Shown in pieces: positions 8,969 to 16,215 of a DNA stretch of 64,000 bases. The notes beneath the pieces are model-generated. The model was not told the DNA's origin. It saw nothing but the letters and a program-made list of their open reading frames with translations, and made no database searches. Source of the DNA: Haloterrigena turkmenica DSM 5511 (GTDB lineage Archaea; Halobacteriota; Halobacteria; Halobacteriales; Natrialbaceae); assembly GCF_000025325.1 (NCBI RefSeq), contig NC_013747.1, positions 1 to 64,000 of the forward strand, written 5' to 3'. The translations under genes and the position numbers were made by a program. Numbering within the stretch: position 1 is the stretch's first letter; each line of letters starts with the position of its first letter.

Positions 8969-10144
8969 ATGGCCATGATCAGTGAACATCCGTCGCTATC
9001 CGCCCGGACACTGCTCGACCGGCGGGCGACGGGAATCGAACCGTTTCTCGAGCGCTACACCGCCAACTTCGCGTTCTACGGTTCCGGAAAGGCGGCACTC
9101 TACGACGGGCTCGCGGGACTCGTCACCCCCGGCGAGAACGTCCTCGTTCCCGCGTACTTGCCGGACGCGGTCGTCGAACCGTTTCGCGACCTCGGACTCG
9201 AGCCCCGGTACTACCGCGTTCGGGAGACGCTCGCACCCGATCGCGCCGACCTCGCTGAACGGCTCGACGACGAGACGGCCGCGGTCGTGACGGTCGACTA
9301 CTTCGGGTTTCCACAGCCCGAGCTCGAGGCGGTCGCGTCGCTGCTCGCCGACCGCGACTGCTATCACGTCGACGACAACGCGCACGCGCCGCTCAGCGTC
9401 GACGACGGCACGTTGCTCGGAACCCGCGGTCACCTCGGCGTCACGAGCCTCCGAAAGCTGTTGCCGATTCCGGACGGTGCCGTCCTCTACTGTAACGACG
9501 ACTCGGTCGCCGCGCGACTCGAGCCGTTGTCGTTCGCCGGCGTCCGCGACCGGTTCGGGGTCGACGACTGCCGGTACGTCCTCGAGTCGCTCGCCGGCGA
9601 TCTCCTCGGGACGAACGCGACGGTTCGCCGGGCGGTCGAGCGGCTGGTCGCCGAGCGAGCGGTGTCGGTCCCCGATCCGAAGGCGCGGTACGAGGCCGCG
9701 AAGACGCCGATGTCAAGACTCTCGGCGGCCGTCGTCGCCGCCGCCGATCCGACGGCGATCCGGCGCGCCCGTCGGACCAACTACCTCGCGTGGCGACGCT
9801 GCTTTGACTCCCGGTCCGGTGTCGAAGCCTATCACGAAACCCTTCCCGAGGGAATCTGTCCGCAGGTCTTCCCCCTTCGAACGGGGTCGCCCCAGCGACT
9901 GGTCGCGGCGCTCGAGCGGTGCGGGGTCGCCGCGCACACGTGGCCGCGACTCGCCGCGACCGTCCGCGACGATCCGGCCTACGCGGTCGCGCGGCGACTG
10001 GCTCGAGAGACCGTCGTCCTGCCGGTCCACCAGGGAGTCGATCCCATCGCGATCGAGGCCGTCGACGATCGACTCCGGCGGCGTGCCACGACCGCTAGTC
10101 GATCCGCGCCGCGGCGGTCAGTTCCCCGCGAACGTCGTCGCTGA
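8969..10144 (+). CDS. DegT/DnrJ/EryC1/StrS-like PLP aminotransferase
   Basis: A 391-residue fold-type I PLP protein. It shows the family order: FYGSGKAALYDGL near residue 30 (cofactor phosphate area), VVTVDYFGFPQ, then YHVDDNAHA with the Asp that contacts the pyridine ring, then SLRKLLPIPDGA, whose Lys is the likely Schiff-base residue. Members usually aminate keto sugars for surface glycans. It is divergent from the phosphatase-FemAB operon, which suggests a shared pathway. The last 50 bases overlap the end of the converging HerA-like gene; the C-terminal tail is Arg/Ser-rich and may be non-essential. A second in-frame ATG two codons on is an equal candidate start. Confidence 0.82.
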   Translation: MAMISEHPSLSARTLLDRRATGIEPFLERYTANFAFYGSGKAALYDGLAGLVTPGENVLVPAYLPDAVVEPFRDLGLEPRYYRVRETLAPDRADLAERLDDETAAVVTVDYFGFPQPELEAVASLLADRDCYHVDDNAHAPLSVDDGTLLGTRGHLGVTSLRKLLPIPDGAVLYCNDDSVAARLEPLSFAGVRDRFGVDDCRYVLESLAGDLLGTNATVRRAVERLVAERAVSVPDPKARYEAAKTPMSRLSAAVVAAADPTAIRRARRTNYLAWRRCFDSRSGVEAYHETLPEGICPQVFPLRTGSPQRLVAALERCGVAAHTWPRLAATVRDDPAYAVARRLARETVVLPVHQGVDPIAIEAVDDRLRRRATTASRSAPRRSVPRERRR

Positions 10145-11885
10145 GCGTGTAGGTCCGCTCGGTGGGCCGGTCGAGGACCCCTTCGGTCCGCAGTTCCGAG
10201 AGGAGACTCTGGACGGCGACCGTCGATCGATCGACCCGTTCGGCGAGGACCGCCGTCTCGAGGGGCCCGTCTCGAGCCAGGACGGCCAGCGCGCGTCGCC
10301 CGGTCGCCGCCGTACACTGAGACTGTCCGGCCGCCGTCTCGAGTCGGTCGTCGATCCAGTCGCCCTCGAACAGGGCCTCGAACGACGGGCGTTCGCTCGC
10401 GGTCGTCGTCCGCTCGTCTCGCTCGACTTCGTTTCGCTCGAACTCGTCCCGTTCGACCTCCGTCCGCCCGGTGTCGTTTCGCGTCGTCTCGTCGCGGTCG
10501 CTATCGCTCGTCGCCTCGTCCCGCTTCTCGAGTTCCTCGCGGATCGACGTGAACCCGAACTCGACCGCGTCACCGCCGGCGTGGACGATCTCGTCGTCCG
10601 ACTCCGTCGGGGTCGTCTCGGGCTCGGGCTCGCTCTCCTCGAGTTCGCGAACGCGGTCCCGAAGCCGCTCGTTTTCCTCGCGGAGCCGTTCCACCGTTTC
10701 CGTTCGCGATTCGAGCGTCGTCTCGAGCGTCTCGATGCGTTCGTCTCGCTCCTCGAGTTCCGCCCGAAGCTCGTCGCGCTCGTCCTCGAGGTCGACGATC
10801 TCGTCGTGGAGGCGACGCAGTTCCTCGTCGCTGCCGCCGCCGAGTTCCGTTTGAACCGTCTCCTTCCGGGTCAGCGCGTCGGCCATCTGCTTGGCCGCCG
10901 ACGAGACGTCCCGCGCCGACTCGAGTTCGTCCTCCAGGGTCTCGATCCGTTTCTCCTTCTTCTCGAGTTCGTTCTCGAGTTCGTTGATCCGGTCCTGTTC
11001 GCGCTCCTTACGCTCGGAGATGTTCTCGAGGTCGCCGACCAGCGCGTCCGAGACGGACTTCAGCTCGGGGCGCTCGAAGTCGTCGAGGCCGGGAGTCGCA
11101 CCCGCGTCGAAGGTCCGCTTGCGGCGGAACTGGACCTTTCGGACATCGACCTCGGTCCAGTCGGTCTGGACGAACGCCTGCCCGTCGTTCAGTTCGGAGA
11201 CGAGCTCCGAGTACTCGGTGTCGATGATCCGCCCGACGACCTTGGTGTCGTTGTCCCAGGTCAGCCGGTGCCAGACGAGCCAGTTGGCCTGCGTGATGAA
11301 GTCCTTCTTGACGTCCGCGGGCCGCTGGCTGATGCCGAGGATGCCAAGGCCGTGTTTGCGCCCGCGCTTGCTGATCTTGATCAACAGGTTCCCCGTCTCG
11401 CCGACGCCGCCGCCCTCGGGGATGTACTCGTGGACCTCCTCGACCACGAGCAGGAAGGGCTTCTTCATCTTCTTCTCCTTGACGAACAGCTGGCGGGCGA
11501 TCTTGCGCAGCAGTTCGTCGGCCACCTCTTCGTCGAGGTAGCCCGAGACGTCTAAGATGATCGGAACGTTCTCCTCGAGCGCGAGGCTCGCCATCTGTTC
11601 GGCGTGTTCGGGCCCGATCTGGATGTCGCACTCCTCGTCGGCGCCGGCGTGGAGCATCTCGTACTCCTCTTTGAGCCCGTAGTACTCGCCGTCGGTGTCG
11701 ACGATCAGGAGGGGAAAGCCCGCCTCGAGTAACTCCTCGGCGATGACCGACGCGGTGTTCGACTTCCCCGAGCCCGACTTGCCGGTCACGAACCCGCGGC
11801 CGGTCAGCAGTTCGACGACCGGGAGCCGCAGCTCCGATCCATCGTCGGTTTCGCCGACCAGAATCTGGCGCTGGTCGCTCACCAA
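10095..11885 (-). CDS. HerA-like DNA-translocase ATPase with coiled coil and winged-helix tail
   Basis: A 596-residue hexameric-type ATPase. Residues 1-300 are a HerA/FtsK-like domain, with Walker A TGKSGSGKSNTAS near residue 35 and Walker B FLLVVEEVHEY. Residues about 305-440 are a long Glu/Arg/Lys-rich coiled coil, followed by an acidic linker, and the last 80 residues (AVLAERVDRSTVAVQSLLSE) look like a winged helix. HerA proteins pump DNA in archaeal end resection, usually with NurA, Mre11 and Rad50; none of these is next door. The 9-bp-phased array and parA lie immediately upstream on the other strand, so a role in chromosome handling is plausible (inference). A TATA-like box sits about 33 bases before the start. 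Confidence 0.88.
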   Translation of the reverse strand: MVSDQRQILVGETDDGSELRLPVVELLTGRGFVTGKSGSGKSNTASVIAEELLEAGFPLLIVDTDGEYYGLKEEYEMLHAGADEECDIQIGPEHAEQMASLALEENVPIILDVSGYLDEEVADELLRKIARQLFVKEKKMKKPFLLVVEEVHEYIPEGGGVGETGNLLIKISKRGRKHGLGILGISQRPADVKKDFITQANWLVWHRLTWDNDTKVVGRIIDTEYSELVSELNDGQAFVQTDWTEVDVRKVQFRRKRTFDAGATPGLDDFERPELKSVSDALVGDLENISERKEREQDRINELENELEKKEKRIETLEDELESARDVSSAAKQMADALTRKETVQTELGGGSDEELRRLHDEIVDLEDERDELRAELEERDERIETLETTLESRTETVERLREENERLRDRVRELEESEPEPETTPTESDDEIVHAGGDAVEFGFTSIREELEKRDEATSDSDRDETTRNDTGRTEVERDEFERNEVERDERTTTASERPSFEALFEGDWIDDRLETAAGQSQCTAATGRRALAVLARDGPLETAVLAERVDRSTVAVQSLLSELRTEGVLDRPTERTYTLSDDVRGELTAAARID

Positions 11886-11913
11886 CGCATCACCTCGAGC
11901 GCGCGCGACGAAT

Positions 11914-11923
11914 TCATATATGG
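11914..11923 (-). promoter_or_regulatory. TATA-like box of the HerA-like gene
   Basis: Reads TCATATATGG on the plus strand, an A+T-rich core about 33 bases before the ATG at 11885. It lies just outside the heptad array that begins at 12006. Confidence 0.45.
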
Positions 11924-12005
11924 GTACACTCCGAACACGGCACCTTGAATATTGGCCTCGTCCGGTGGATTCGGGTGTTTCTGCTGGATCGATCGCTGTG
12001 TCTCT

Positions 12006-12877
12006 TCACAGTTGAGACAGTGCACAACGTGTAGACCGTTTACACCGTGTGATACGTCTTTTGCGTGAACAAATCACACTCAACTGCTATCGACCCTCCC
12101 GTCGTGACCGACTGCATCCGCTCGAGTCGTGAGGTACGGCGTACTCTTCGGAAGAGTGGACAGTTTGACCAGTGATACATTCTAAACAGTGCATCGGGTG
12201 GTCTCGAGTTCGTCCGATATGAGCCGACCGCCTCGCGTTTCAGTTCAGGTTCCCGCCGTGAGAACACGGTGAATAATTTGTAGGACGTGTGCACCGTTAA
12301 CGATTCTTCCACTGTCTACACTTCGTACGATGTCTAAACTGTGTGAGAATCATCGAAATACAGTAACGGCTTTTACAGCCGATATACTACTTGAAAACCG
12401 TCCCAGAACTACACCGTCTACACTTCGTCGGGTTATCTGAATCGGTACACCGTTCACACCGTATAGAATGTGTAGACTGTTTCCACTACTGTTAAGTTAT
12501 CTTATCCGAATGATAGACGTGTTACTCGCCGCGTCCGATCGCGTCGATCTCGACCCATGACTGATCCGATGTCTCCACTGTGTAGACGCTTTCCACTTAG
12601 GGAAACGTTCGCACGGGCGGCTCCCACTCCCGTTCCATCCTCTCGACACCGTTCAAACTGTGCATACCGTTTGAACTGTGCTCGAGGTCCGAACCGTTTC
12701 GACTGCTTCCGACGTTCGGACCGTGGACGATCCGTCCCACGTCGACCGCGGAACGTCGTTCGCGGAATCCTGCTCGCACTGATCGGAGCCGCTAGCCCGC
12801 AGATTCAAGACGGTTTGCACATTCTACACGGTGTACACGGTGGAAGCGGTCTTCGACGTTCGAACCGTTCGCACCGC
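12006..12877. repeat. array of ~39 heptads (NNACNGT) at 9-bp spacing; candidate centromere/operator
   Basis: The non-coding gap between herA-like and parA holds heptads of type ACACCGT, AGACTGT, CCACTGT, AAACTGT and GAACTGT. Within blocks they start exactly 9 bases apart: 12006-12051 (6 units); 12264-12336 (7); 12411-12483 (7, with two register-keeping gaps); 12566-12593 (4); 12646-12736 (about 9). A last block in opposite orientation starts at 12810, 12819, 12828, 12837, 12846 and 12855, just before parA. The count is by eye and includes degenerate members. Long arrays of short phased sites next to parA are typical of centromeres bound by ribbon-helix-helix proteins on plasmids. The region is clearly less G+C rich than its flanks, and no gene is seen in it. 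Confidence 0.8.
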
Positions 12878-12917
12878 TCCCGCTCGAGATCGGCCGCGGC
12901 GACGGACCTTCCCACAC

Positions 12918-13754
12918 ATGACGACTGACACCCCACGCGCCGTCAGCGTCGCCCTGCAGAAGGGCGGCGTCGGCAAGACGACCCTCGCGATCAACCTCGC
13001 CGAACGACTCGCCAACCGCGACAACGACGTCCTGCTCGTCGACTTAGACCAGCAGGGCAACGCCACCGAAGGCGTCGGCCTGAGCGACGCCTACACGAGC
13101 GACGTCCATATCGGAGATATTCTCGAAGACGGCACCGAGACGACGCTCGGCGACGTGATCCGCTCGGCGGGCGCCTTCGACGTGCTACCGGCCCACGAGG
13201 ATTTAGACAGCGTCGAGAACAGCATCCGCAGCGCGACCTTCGGCGAACTCTGGATCCGAAACGAGATCGTCGATCCGGTCCTCGGCGACACCTACGACTA
13301 CGTCGTCGTCGACTCGCCGCCGAACCTCGGGCCGCTGGCCGACGCCTCGCTCATCTCCACCCAGAACGTCATCGTCCCGCTGCGGATGAGCGAACCCAGC
13401 GTCAGCGGCTTCGAGCGGATGTACACCCAGCAGATCGGCCCGATCCGCAAGGAGATCGACCTCGACATCATGGCGATCGTCCCCAACTCGCTGGCCGGCG
13501 ACAACGAGGAAAAGCGTATCATCACCGACTTAGAGGAGTCCCAGTTCGGCGAGTTCCTGCCCCAGTTCGCCCGCTCGGAGCACTTCGACGATCCAGACTC
13601 GCCCGGCCCCGGCCTGCGCGAGCGGATCGCCTTCCGTCGGGCCTGGCGCGAGGGCGTCCCGCTCGCCGAATACGACCCTGACAACGACATGCTCGATCGT
13701 TTGGACGAACTCGCCGCCATCGTCGAGCGCGGAGGTGTCGCCGATGCCCGATGA
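12918..13754 (+). CDS. parA: ParA-family partition ATPase
   Basis: A 278-residue ParA/Soj/MinD-type ATPase. It has the deviant Walker A KGGVGKTT at residues 15-22, with the signature Lys, then LLVDLDQQGNATEG and VVVDSPPNLGPLAD (Walker B region). There is no N-terminal DNA-binding extension, as in the short (Ib-like) ParAs. It would form the dynamic filament or gradient that moves DNA bound by its partner. The start was placed at the ATG before TTDTPRAV; the longer frame runs through heptad repeats and was rejected. The heptad array reaches up to the promoter region, suggesting autoregulation by the partner. The next gene overlaps by 11 bases. Confidence 0.92.
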   Translation: MTTDTPRAVSVALQKGGVGKTTLAINLAERLANRDNDVLLVDLDQQGNATEGVGLSDAYTSDVHIGDILEDGTETTLGDVIRSAGAFDVLPAHEDLDSVENSIRSATFGELWIRNEIVDPVLGDTYDYVVVDSPPNLGPLADASLISTQNVIVPLRMSEPSVSGFERMYTQQIGPIRKEIDLDIMAIVPNSLAGDNEEKRIITDLEESQFGEFLPQFARSEHFDDPDSPGPGLRERIAFRRAWREGVPLAEYDPDNDMLDRLDELAAIVERGGVADAR

Positions 13755-14214
13755 CAACCGCTTCGCTGGACTGAGCGATGCCGTCGAGGACGATTCAGAC
13801 GAGGAATCGAGCGCCGAATCGGCGGCTGCCGAGTCCTCGAGCGAGGAGACCGATTCGACGACGACCGGAGACGATGCGTCTGCACCCGAATCCGAGACCG
13901 ATGGCGACTCGAGCGCCGAGACGGCGGAACCCGATGTCGATGGCGATACCGCTGACGACGCCAGCGCTGATGACGCCAACACTGACGACCCGACGGCGTT
14001 CCCGTTCGACGCGACCGAGAAGAAGACGGTGTACGTCCGCCCGGAGACGCTCGCCGATCTAGACGACGCGCGCGCGTTGGTCGACGCGCAGTTGCGAACG
14101 GACCACGACGTTCGCGATCTGACCGGTCGCGAGTTCTACGACGCCGTCTTCCGGCTCGCGGCCGCGGACACCGAGGGCGTGATCGACGAGATTCTCGAGG
14201 CCCGCGAGGAGTAG
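13744..14214 (+). CDS. acidic ParA partner, probable centromere-binding protein
   Basis: A 156-residue protein that overlaps the end of parA by 11 bases, so the pair is probably co-translated. Residues about 11-85 are an acidic Ser/Asp/Glu/Thr tail that looks unstructured. The C-terminal 65 residues contain KKTVYVRPETLADLDDARA, then DVRDLTGREFYDAVFRLAA. This strand-helix-helix order resembles a ribbon-helix-helix DNA-binding fold, although I do not recognise a named family. Small RHH proteins with a flexible tail (ParG, omega, CopG-like) are the classic partners of short ParAs. It is the natural candidate to bind the heptad array (inference). No ParB-type HTH is seen. Confidence 0.75.
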   Translation: MPDDNRFAGLSDAVEDDSDEESSAESAAAESSSEETDSTTTGDDASAPESETDGDSSAETAEPDVDGDTADDASADDANTDDPTAFPFDATEKKTVYVRPETLADLDDARALVDAQLRTDHDVRDLTGREFYDAVFRLAAADTEGVIDEILEAREE

Positions 14215-16215
14215 CTACTCGTCGCCAACGCTCCCGTCGATCTCGTCATCCCCGTCGCTTGTGCCGTTTCCGTCCTTTTCATCGGTTTCATCGGCGTCGT
14301 CGGCTTCGGAACCCTCGTCGCGTTCGACGTTCTGCTCGCGGATCGTCATCCCCTTGCGGCCGAGGTGCTGGAGCTGTTTGCGGGCGAAGTCCTCCTCGCG
14401 GGTCCCTCGCGTCGCGAGCACGTAGACGAGCGCACCACCGGCGGGGCGCATCGTCCGCCCGGCTCGCTGGGTTCCCTGCCGTCGGGAGCCGCCGAGTCCC
14501 GAGGCGACGATCGCCAGATCGGCCGTCGGGAGGTCGATCCCCTCGTCGCCGACCCGCGAAACGATGAGGAGGTCCCGCTCGTTCCGCCGGAACTCATCGA
14601 GCAGTCGCCGGCGCTCGTGGTGGGGCGTCTCACCGCTGAGGAACGGAACATCGAGGGCGGCCGAGAGGTCCTTCCCCTGCTCTAAGTAGTCGACGAATAC
14701 CAGCGCCTTCGAGTCGGGGTGGGCCGACAGCAGGTAGCGCACCTCGTCGACCTTCCCGCGATTCTTCGCGGCGATCCGGTACTTCTCCTGGCCGTCCGCG
14801 GAGGCGTAGGCGTTGCCCTGCTCGTCGTCACCCCACGGGACGTAGCGGATCTCGAGTTCCGGTTCGGCGACGAAGCCGGCCTCGAACAGCGCCTCCCAGT
14901 CGGTACCGATCGGCGGACCCACGAGGGTGAAGATCTCCTGCTGGCGGTCGTCCTCACGGATCGGGCTGGCAGAGAGGCCGAGTCGGTGTTTGGACTGCAA
15001 ATGGGTACTTCGGCGGTAGACGTCCGACGGGACGTGCTGGCACTCGTCGAAGATCACCAGCCCCCACTCGCGGTCGTCGAACAGCGAGCGGTGGCGATCC
15101 ATCCCCGCGATCTGGTAGGTCGCGATCGTCACCGGCCGGACCTCCTTGCGCCCGCCGTGGTACTGGCCGATCTGCTCCGGTTCGAGCGAGGTGTACTCGA
15201 GGATTGTGTCGGCCCACTGCCGGGCCAGATCGCGGCTCGGCACCAGAATCAGGGTCTCGCCGTCGACGTGAGCCATCGCCCCCATCGCGGCGACGGTCTT
15301 CCCGCTTCCCGGCGGCCCGACGAAGACGCCCTCGCCGGCCTCCGCGAAGCGGTCGACCCACGTTCGCTGGTAGTCTCGCAGTCGAACCTCGAGGTCGACG
15401 GGAAGCTCCTCGCCGGACTCGAGCTCGCGATGATCCTGCACCGGGTAGCCAGCCTCGTAGAGGATTCGCTTGATCGCGGCCTCCGAGCCCTCACGAACCC
15501 AGTCCTCGGTGTCAGATATCGGCGCGTGGACGTGTTCTTCGTCGAGTTTCTGCCGCGCGACGTTGCCCATAATCTCGGGACTCTTGGCCTCGAGGACGGT
15601 ATAGCCCTCTTCGTGGGTCGTCAGCCGGAACTGGTGGGCCCGATCCCACTGGCTCCGGACCCACTCCTCGAGTCCCTCGGAGCGCTGGCCGAGCGCCTGG
15701 CGCATCGTCCGGGCCAGCGCCTCCCAGGAGTCGTGGGGCGCCTGCCAGATGTCCTCGGGCCTGACGACGTAGCGATACCCCTGCTCGCTGTTCCCGTCCG
15801 CGAGGTGGGCGAACTGGGCGAGTTGCGCGCGGGTAAACTGGTCCGGTCGATCGACGATTATCTCGCGGCGCTTCGGGAAGACGACGACGCGCTCCCGGTC
15901 CGTGAGGTCCTCGAGTTCGCTGGGATACCAGACGACGGGATCCGTTTCGACGGCGAGGCGCTGGACGGCCTCTCGGTCCGCGAGGAACTCGAGTTCCTTG
16001 CGGGCCCGTTCCTGAGTGATATCCAGAGCCCGGGAGAGTGCGGCGGCGGTGAGCACCGGTCGCCCTGCCTCCTGCGATGCGTCGTGAAAGTCCGCGAGCG
16101 TGAACTGCTCGTCGTCCTGCTCGTCTCCGGTGGGATCGCTGTCCCCGTCGGCCGCTGGATCCTCGGGTCGCTGGCTCTCGCCACCGGTCGCTTCCGAAGC
16201 ACGTTCGTCGGTCAC
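14215..16215 (-). CDS. XPB/Rad25-like superfamily 2 DNA helicase
   Basis: A 666-residue SF2 helicase. The N-terminal 60 residues are acidic, followed by a winged-helix-like segment (LTAAALSRALDITQERARKEL). The motor domains lie at about 280-600: Walker A GPPGSGKTVAA, motif II FDECQ in place of the usual DEAH/DEVH, motif III LGLSASPIR, and motif VI QRAGRTMRP. An acidic tail follows. XPB-like helicases open DNA in repair and transcription. The stop codon abuts the end of the ParA partner gene (14214/14215), so the two transcripts converge with no space for a separate terminator. Its link to partition is positional only. Confidence 0.88.
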   Translation of the reverse strand: MTDERASEATGGESQRPEDPAADGDSDPTGDEQDDEQFTLADFHDASQEAGRPVLTAAALSRALDITQERARKELEFLADREAVQRLAVETDPVVWYPSELEDLTDRERVVVFPKRREIIVDRPDQFTRAQLAQFAHLADGNSEQGYRYVVRPEDIWQAPHDSWEALARTMRQALGQRSEGLEEWVRSQWDRAHQFRLTTHEEGYTVLEAKSPEIMGNVARQKLDEEHVHAPISDTEDWVREGSEAAIKRILYEAGYPVQDHRELESGEELPVDLEVRLRDYQRTWVDRFAEAGEGVFVGPPGSGKTVAAMGAMAHVDGETLILVPSRDLARQWADTILEYTSLEPEQIGQYHGGRKEVRPVTIATYQIAGMDRHRSLFDDREWGLVIFDECQHVPSDVYRRSTHLQSKHRLGLSASPIREDDRQQEIFTLVGPPIGTDWEALFEAGFVAEPELEIRYVPWGDDEQGNAYASADGQEKYRIAAKNRGKVDEVRYLLSAHPDSKALVFVDYLEQGKDLSAALDVPFLSGETPHHERRRLLDEFRRNERDLLIVSRVGDEGIDLPTADLAIVASGLGGSRRQGTQRAGRTMRPAGGALVYVLATRGTREEDFARKQLQHLGRKGMTIREQNVERDEGSEADDADETDEKDGNGTSDGDDEIDGSVGDE

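Follow-up and report, generated by a model that had tools for sequence, protein, structure and literature searches.

The intergenic region upstream of a short parA gene of Haloterrigena turkmenica carries an array of palindromic units in a 9-bp register. With a probability of about 0.84, and judging from sequence comparison, we consider this array to serve plasmid pHTUR04 as its partition site (centromere), and probably the par operon as an operator too, with the product of 13744-14214 as the coating protein of a type Ib-like ParABS system. The window, i.e., the whole stretch of 64,000 bp that was analyzed, comprises bases 1-64000 of a 171,943-bp replicon. The genome of H. turkmenica (5,440,782 bp, seven replicons) includes six circular plasmids, and the array replicon, as the fifth-largest, would correspond to circular plasmid pHTUR04, a name we assigned by size rank. 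Close orthologues of the locus come from replicons deposited as circular plasmids, e.g., the 171-kb pHTS171 of H. salifodinae. An earlier note on this DNA had taken the flanking sequence for chromosomal, which is refuted by the small size of the replicon in this genome and by the plasmid location of the orthologues.

The array lies far above chance. In the intergenic region 11886-12917, match fractions of 0.365, 0.331, 0.311 and 0.302 were obtained at lags of 9, 18, 27 and 36, respectively, in comparison to 0.253 in shuffled sequence. Against a null of 5000 dinucleotide shuffles, the excess corresponds to z 7.9 for lag 9 and z 10.8 for the mean of the four lags, confirming the periodicity that had been noticed by eye. 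The region contains 28 ACNGT cores, while 7.2 +/- 2.5 were expected and 17 was the maximum among the shuffles. A palindromic weight matrix, trained only on the 26 other orthologous loci with the window left out, identified 29 units here and about 2-3 per kb at equal score in the rest of the window. Of the 27 core-to-core steps, 18 are multiples of 9 (binomial p ~1e-11). The number of about 39 heptads counted previously includes degenerate copies, as 28-29 units pass the threshold. Place and period of the array as first described (12006-12877, 9 bp) were reproduced, but exact cores follow each other without a gap in runs of at most four in the window (block 4) and at most five in orthologues. 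Lags divisible by 3 yet not by 9 remained near background in the array. A coding origin of the periodicity was therefore rejected, in line with the former impression that the repeats have no coding explanation.

The plasmid was scanned for periodicity over its entire length, stretch by stretch, and the remaining genome was searched for exact patterns. The sliding 9-specific score peaked at the array (0.093) and reached 0.038 at best elsewhere on the 171,943-bp replicon. All clusters of at least three cores at multiples of 9 on the complete replicon fall within the array, and the scan revealed no second 9-bp array on it. Three exact tandem cores occur in the genome only at the array and once on replicon C6.

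To define the unit, 811 ACNGT sites from the upstream regions of 27 orthologous loci were aligned on their cores. The alignment reads A(-4) C(-3) A(-2) C(-1) N G(+1) T(+2) G(+3) T(+4), with T(-5) and A(+5) as flanks, i.e., the 9-bp palindrome ACACNGTGT, adjoining units being joined by a TA step. The ACACNGTGT pattern recurs at +9 and -9 around the aligned cores. For the group of the window the unit was taken from direct counts; an unconstrained EM search, which reached its site-density limit, gave a less clear motif. Since the unit is self-complementary, the terms 'heptad' and 'reverse-oriented' carry little meaning, and unit orientation as a code was rejected for the same reason. The oriented NNACNGT heptads of the earlier note are views of one symmetric unit, and its reverse-oriented block at 12810 shares the register of the block at 12646, the distance from the last unit of block 4 to the first of block 5 being 90 bp or 10 units. 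The block starts at 12006, 12264, 12411, 12646 and ~12808-12810 could be retained, whereas the block at 12566 is short and weak, with one strong unit centred at 12579. The array is composed as follows (no strand assigned; "matrix" denotes the weight matrix from other loci):

12006-12870, proposed partition-site array: 28-29 units with the consensus ACACNGTGT, their centres 9 bp apart within a block, occupying most of the intergenic region 11886-12917
12006-12050, block 1: five units with centres at 12010, 12019, 12028, 12037 and 12046 (matrix)
12264-12344, block 2: centres at 12268, 12295, 12313 and 12340 in a single 9-bp register (matrix)
12411-12482, block 3: centres at 12415, 12451, 12460, 12469 and 12478 (matrix)
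12575-12583, single strong unit: centre at 12579, inside the block formerly placed at 12566 (matrix)
12646-12726, block 4: centres at 12650, 12659, 12668, 12677, 12695 and 12722, including the longest exact run (four)
12808-12870, block 5, formerly the 'reverse' block: centres at 12812, 12821, 12830, 12839 and 12866, in the register of block 4

An array is present upstream of parA in all 27 orthologous loci. In the 23 loci that were measured, it consists of 18-42 cores, mostly ~30, across 0.8-1.7 kb, and 500 of 712 core-to-core spacings are multiples of 9. The intergenic DNA itself is poorly conserved, with ~53% identity to orthologues as compared to ~87% for parA; beyond the nearest species, the corresponding values are 0.48-0.59 and 0.84-0.94. 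When compared to more distant orthologues, only 7-17 of the 28 cores share an aligned column. Unit number and register thus persist despite diverged intergenic DNA, pointing to selection on the register rather than on the sequence. Such a turnover of positions with register and unit kept is as expected for an array that would be selected as a binding matrix.

The array fills the space between the promoters of two diverging genes, its final ACNGT core ends 49 bp before the ATG of parA, and palindromic arrays could serve regulation alone. The array might accordingly be an operator only, through which the partner or another regulator represses parA, perhaps together with the diverging HerA-like gene, with the true partition site elsewhere. 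We regard this as unlikely, because the numbers of cores in the orthologues and the length they span far exceed regulatory need, distant groups keep the array without the HerA-like gene, the replicon has no second array, and a single site fills both roles in type Ib systems (PMC5016525).

The partition-site reading assigns the following roles to the genes around the array:

12918-13754, plus strand: ParA, a 278-aa deviant Walker ATPase with KGGVGKTT near the N-terminus and a Pfam AAA_31 match (7.9e-35) at residues 7-180
13744-14214, plus strand: partner of 156 aa, the proposed centromere-binding protein, with N-terminal MP[DE][DE]NRFAGL, an acidic linker and a C-terminal 75-aa domain
13984-14211, plus strand: C-terminal domain of the partner, an extended KKTVYVR followed by three helices, with invariant Tyr97, Arg129, Glu130, Ala134 and Arg154
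10095-11885, minus strand: HerA/DUF87-like ATPase containing a coiled-coil region, on the other side of the array and transcribed away from parA, an arrangement kept in nearly all orthologous loci
14215-16215, minus strand: XPB/Rad25-like helicase, a convergent neighbour kept in most orthologous loci and outside the proposed mechanism

The product of 12918-13754 displays the KGGVGKT Walker A motif and the ParA/AAA_31 domain of the ParA superfamily, and its nearest PDB sequences are Soj/ParA structures. Its ATPase domain starts at residue 7, and an N-terminal DNA-binding (HTH) domain is absent. The ATG of the partner gene (13744) precedes the stop of parA (13754), so that the two genes overlap, and the order array, parA, partner is also found in the orthologues. 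In the partner, a long, acidic and variable linker connects the conserved N-terminal motif to the C-terminal domain. The MP[DE][DE]NRFAGL motif is kept in the group of the window, and its Arg is missing in the group with MSNPFDDL. As a side observation, the HerA/DUF87-like gene would place a DNA-pumping ATPase beside the proposed centromere, where it may take part in plasmid handling. The block of HerA-like gene, array, parA, partner and XPB-like gene is conserved on secondary replicons of ~155-245 kb in several genera of Natrialbaceae (L067-L083, L086, G027/G100/G023), suggesting an old, stable replicon lineage (chromid-like).

AlphaFold2 models of the partner domain, with pLDDT values of 91.2 and 93.9, consist of an extended, strand-like KKTVYVR and, after it, three helices with 22, 14 and 13 residues. 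This order of elements fits a ribbon-helix-helix (RHH) monomer, making an RHH fold plausible for the partner, and by eye the KTVYVR stretch resembles the strand KTVRVR of omega (PDB 2bnw). The partner did not match any family in Pfam or NCBIfam, and a Pfam search with all 28 partner domains returned noise only. Sequence profiles of the partner against the PDB gave one marginal match, VicH with an E value of 0.029, and none with a larger alignment; the profile did not match the omega repressor. Foldseek searches of the PDB with two models of the domain found no meaningful match, and VIA-align merely re-ranked ten Foldseek hits. As neither database nor fold searches returned a supporting match, the RHH assignment is an inference from the predicted architecture.

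Beyond the orthologues, ParA homologues of ~36-70% identity with a recognisable partner are mostly preceded by 9-bp arrays. Motif discovery in these distant groups, with period and symmetry unconstrained, yielded consensi that are 9-bp-periodic and in most groups self-complementary. The unit covaries with the partner subfamily: TASSTANNN goes with Q[RK]P[LF]YAR partners, ACATWATGT with MHGFYVR and AMANTKTNN with KS[VI]YVR. ACNGT cores occur at 31/kb in the KKTVYVR group, at 13/kb in the close KS[VI]YVR group and at 4-5/kb where the partner is of the QRPLYAR or MHGFYVR type. Conversely, TASSTA reaches 6/kb in its own group and at most 0.5/kb elsewhere, and CATWATG 9/kb as compared to ~1/kb. A 9-specific signal was absent from ParA homologues without a recognised partner (L097-L100, L126), the excess not exceeding 0.012. 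Certain loci that do have a partner, or a related ParA, were also weakly periodic or aperiodic over the 800 bp ahead of parA (e.g., L131, z 0.8; L147, z 2.1; L127, z 2.1). Since the unit tracks the partner subfamily and loci without a recognised partner lack the array, the simplest interpretation is that the array is read by the partner. The centromere proposed earlier and its 9-bp register beside a short parA are therefore well supported by the comparison, with the array in 27/27 orthologues and a constant 9-bp step while the unit varies with the partner subfamily. Residues of the partner strand would set the specificity for the unit, with KKTVYVR directing ACACNGTGT and QRPLYAR TAGCTANNN, and the position of Thr95 (T, S, P or G among the groups) would be the first candidate for a specificity residue.

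That the unit follows the partner also speaks against reading the array as a replication origin whose iterons are bound by an initiator protein. The layout is iteron-like, and several other plasmids or contigs have an orc1/cdc6 gene at a distance of ~1-8 kb from par. The three orc1/cdc6 genes of the 171,943-bp replicon, however, are located at 102, 117 and 142 kb, far from the array at 12 kb. An orc-linked origin was judged unlikely for this distance, and we consider an iteron-type origin at the array very improbable.

A partition site would be used as follows. Each palindromic 9-bp unit of the array would be bound by one dimer of the partner, and the dimers together would coat the array to form a phased, wrapped nucleoprotein filament. 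The flexible acidic N-terminal part of the partner, with its conserved Arg motif, could then reach ParA and stimulate its ATPase, and a gradient of nucleoid-bound ParA would move the plasmid and thereby segregate it. Bound to the array, the partner may in addition repress the par operon, resulting in autoregulation. Distinct palindromes per plasmid, even within one cell, would keep the par systems apart.

The locus shares several features with type Ib partition systems, i.e., a short ParA without N-terminal HTH, an overlapping small downstream gene and an upstream array of short repeats, which in this comparison would take the centromere role. In delta/omega/parS of pSM19035, a type Ib system with the RHH protein omega, a small ParA likewise acts with a small partner carrying a flexible N-terminus and with many short units. 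Its parS sites comprise 7-10 contiguous short units each and overlap promoters (PMC9499535, PMC5016525), and full activation of the ATPase requires four or more contiguous units (PMC9499535). Exact cores of the array in the window form runs of up to four, and the runs lengthen when degenerate units are included. Omega recognizes 7-bp heptads in direct and inverted orientation, whereas here 9-bp palindromes are found, with ~30 units in one site.

SegAB of Saccharolobus/Sulfolobus chromosomes resembles the locus in its archaeal ParA, the overlapping downstream gene for a small partner and the upstream palindromes; SegB is an RHH protein whose palindromic binding sites include ones upstream of the operon (PMC5120986, PMC12284271). 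SegB sites are 13-bp palindromes dispersed on the chromosome, two of them near segA, in contrast to a single dense plasmid array of 9-bp units, and PDB searches revealed no sequence link between the partner and SegB. Repeats upstream of the operon are also shared with ParF/ParG/parH of TP228 and ParB/parS of pCXC100, in which the RHH partner acts as repressor, too, the pCXC100 repeats being direct only (PMC5016525). The units of TP228 are separated by AT-rich spacers, unlike those of the array. The AspA-ParBA system of the Sulfolobus plasmid pNOB8 represents ParA-based archaeal plasmid partition (PMC5120986), but combines a single 23-bp palindrome and spreading with an additional adaptor, ParB, instead of using an array, whereas no adaptor gene adjoins parA here. 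Relative to the systems compared, with the repeat length of pCXC100 outside the comparison, the 9-bp step would be new. A literature search, with most subscription journals outside its range, found no published description of such 9-bp arrays.

The inheritance of large plasmids and minichromosomes in haloarchaea is poorly understood, and the archaeal systems treated in the reviews consulted are those of Sulfolobales. The locus combines a clearly delimited site with a specific candidate binder, and its array is open to scrambling or re-phasing. The same layout is found on replicons of two workable strains, namely pHME505 of Haloferax mediterranei, with a 9-bp array of z 17.2, and pNRC100 of Halobacterium salinarum, with a 327-bp array directly before parA (L182:2168-2494, z 13.9). 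The pNRC100 array is built of CTATTNNNN units at 9 bp and changes strand once, about two thirds along. In H. turkmenica itself, the 413-kb (C3, L105) and 180-kb (C4, L106) replicons carry a system of the Q[RK]P[LF]YAR type, the array being weak at L105 (z 4.7) and clearer at L106 (z 7.2), where CTATT-like units are visible. The partner subfamilies with their differing palindromes represent a natural data set for DNA reading and for the coexistence of par systems in one cell.

The partner domain was detected in 191 of 392 sampled haloarchaeal genomes of the order and in 55 of 95 genera, and par loci with 9-bp arrays also occur on contigs of 2.9-4.1 Mb (L103, L104, L130, L132, L141, L144-L146). 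A far-reaching extension, which we consider doubtful, would be a haloarchaea-wide partition class in which an unnamed family of small proteins reads palindromes at a 9-bp step, several distinct unit codes separate co-resident megaplasmids, and main chromosomes of some genera have adopted copies as true centromeres. For the array in the window, the large contigs and the neighbours common to two congeners might be taken to suggest a chromosomal centromere, but the window belongs to a 171,943-bp replicon with orthologues on circular plasmids, and the chromosomal par copy G084, which adjoins orc1/cdc6 genes, looks like an integrated plasmid. A chromosomal centromere is thus extremely unlikely here, and plasmid partition remains the preferred reading. 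Among the large contigs, four of one genus (L144, L145, L146 and L103; 3.5-4.0 Mb) carry strong arrays, and two of the species share flanking genes and a nearby tRNA-Val.
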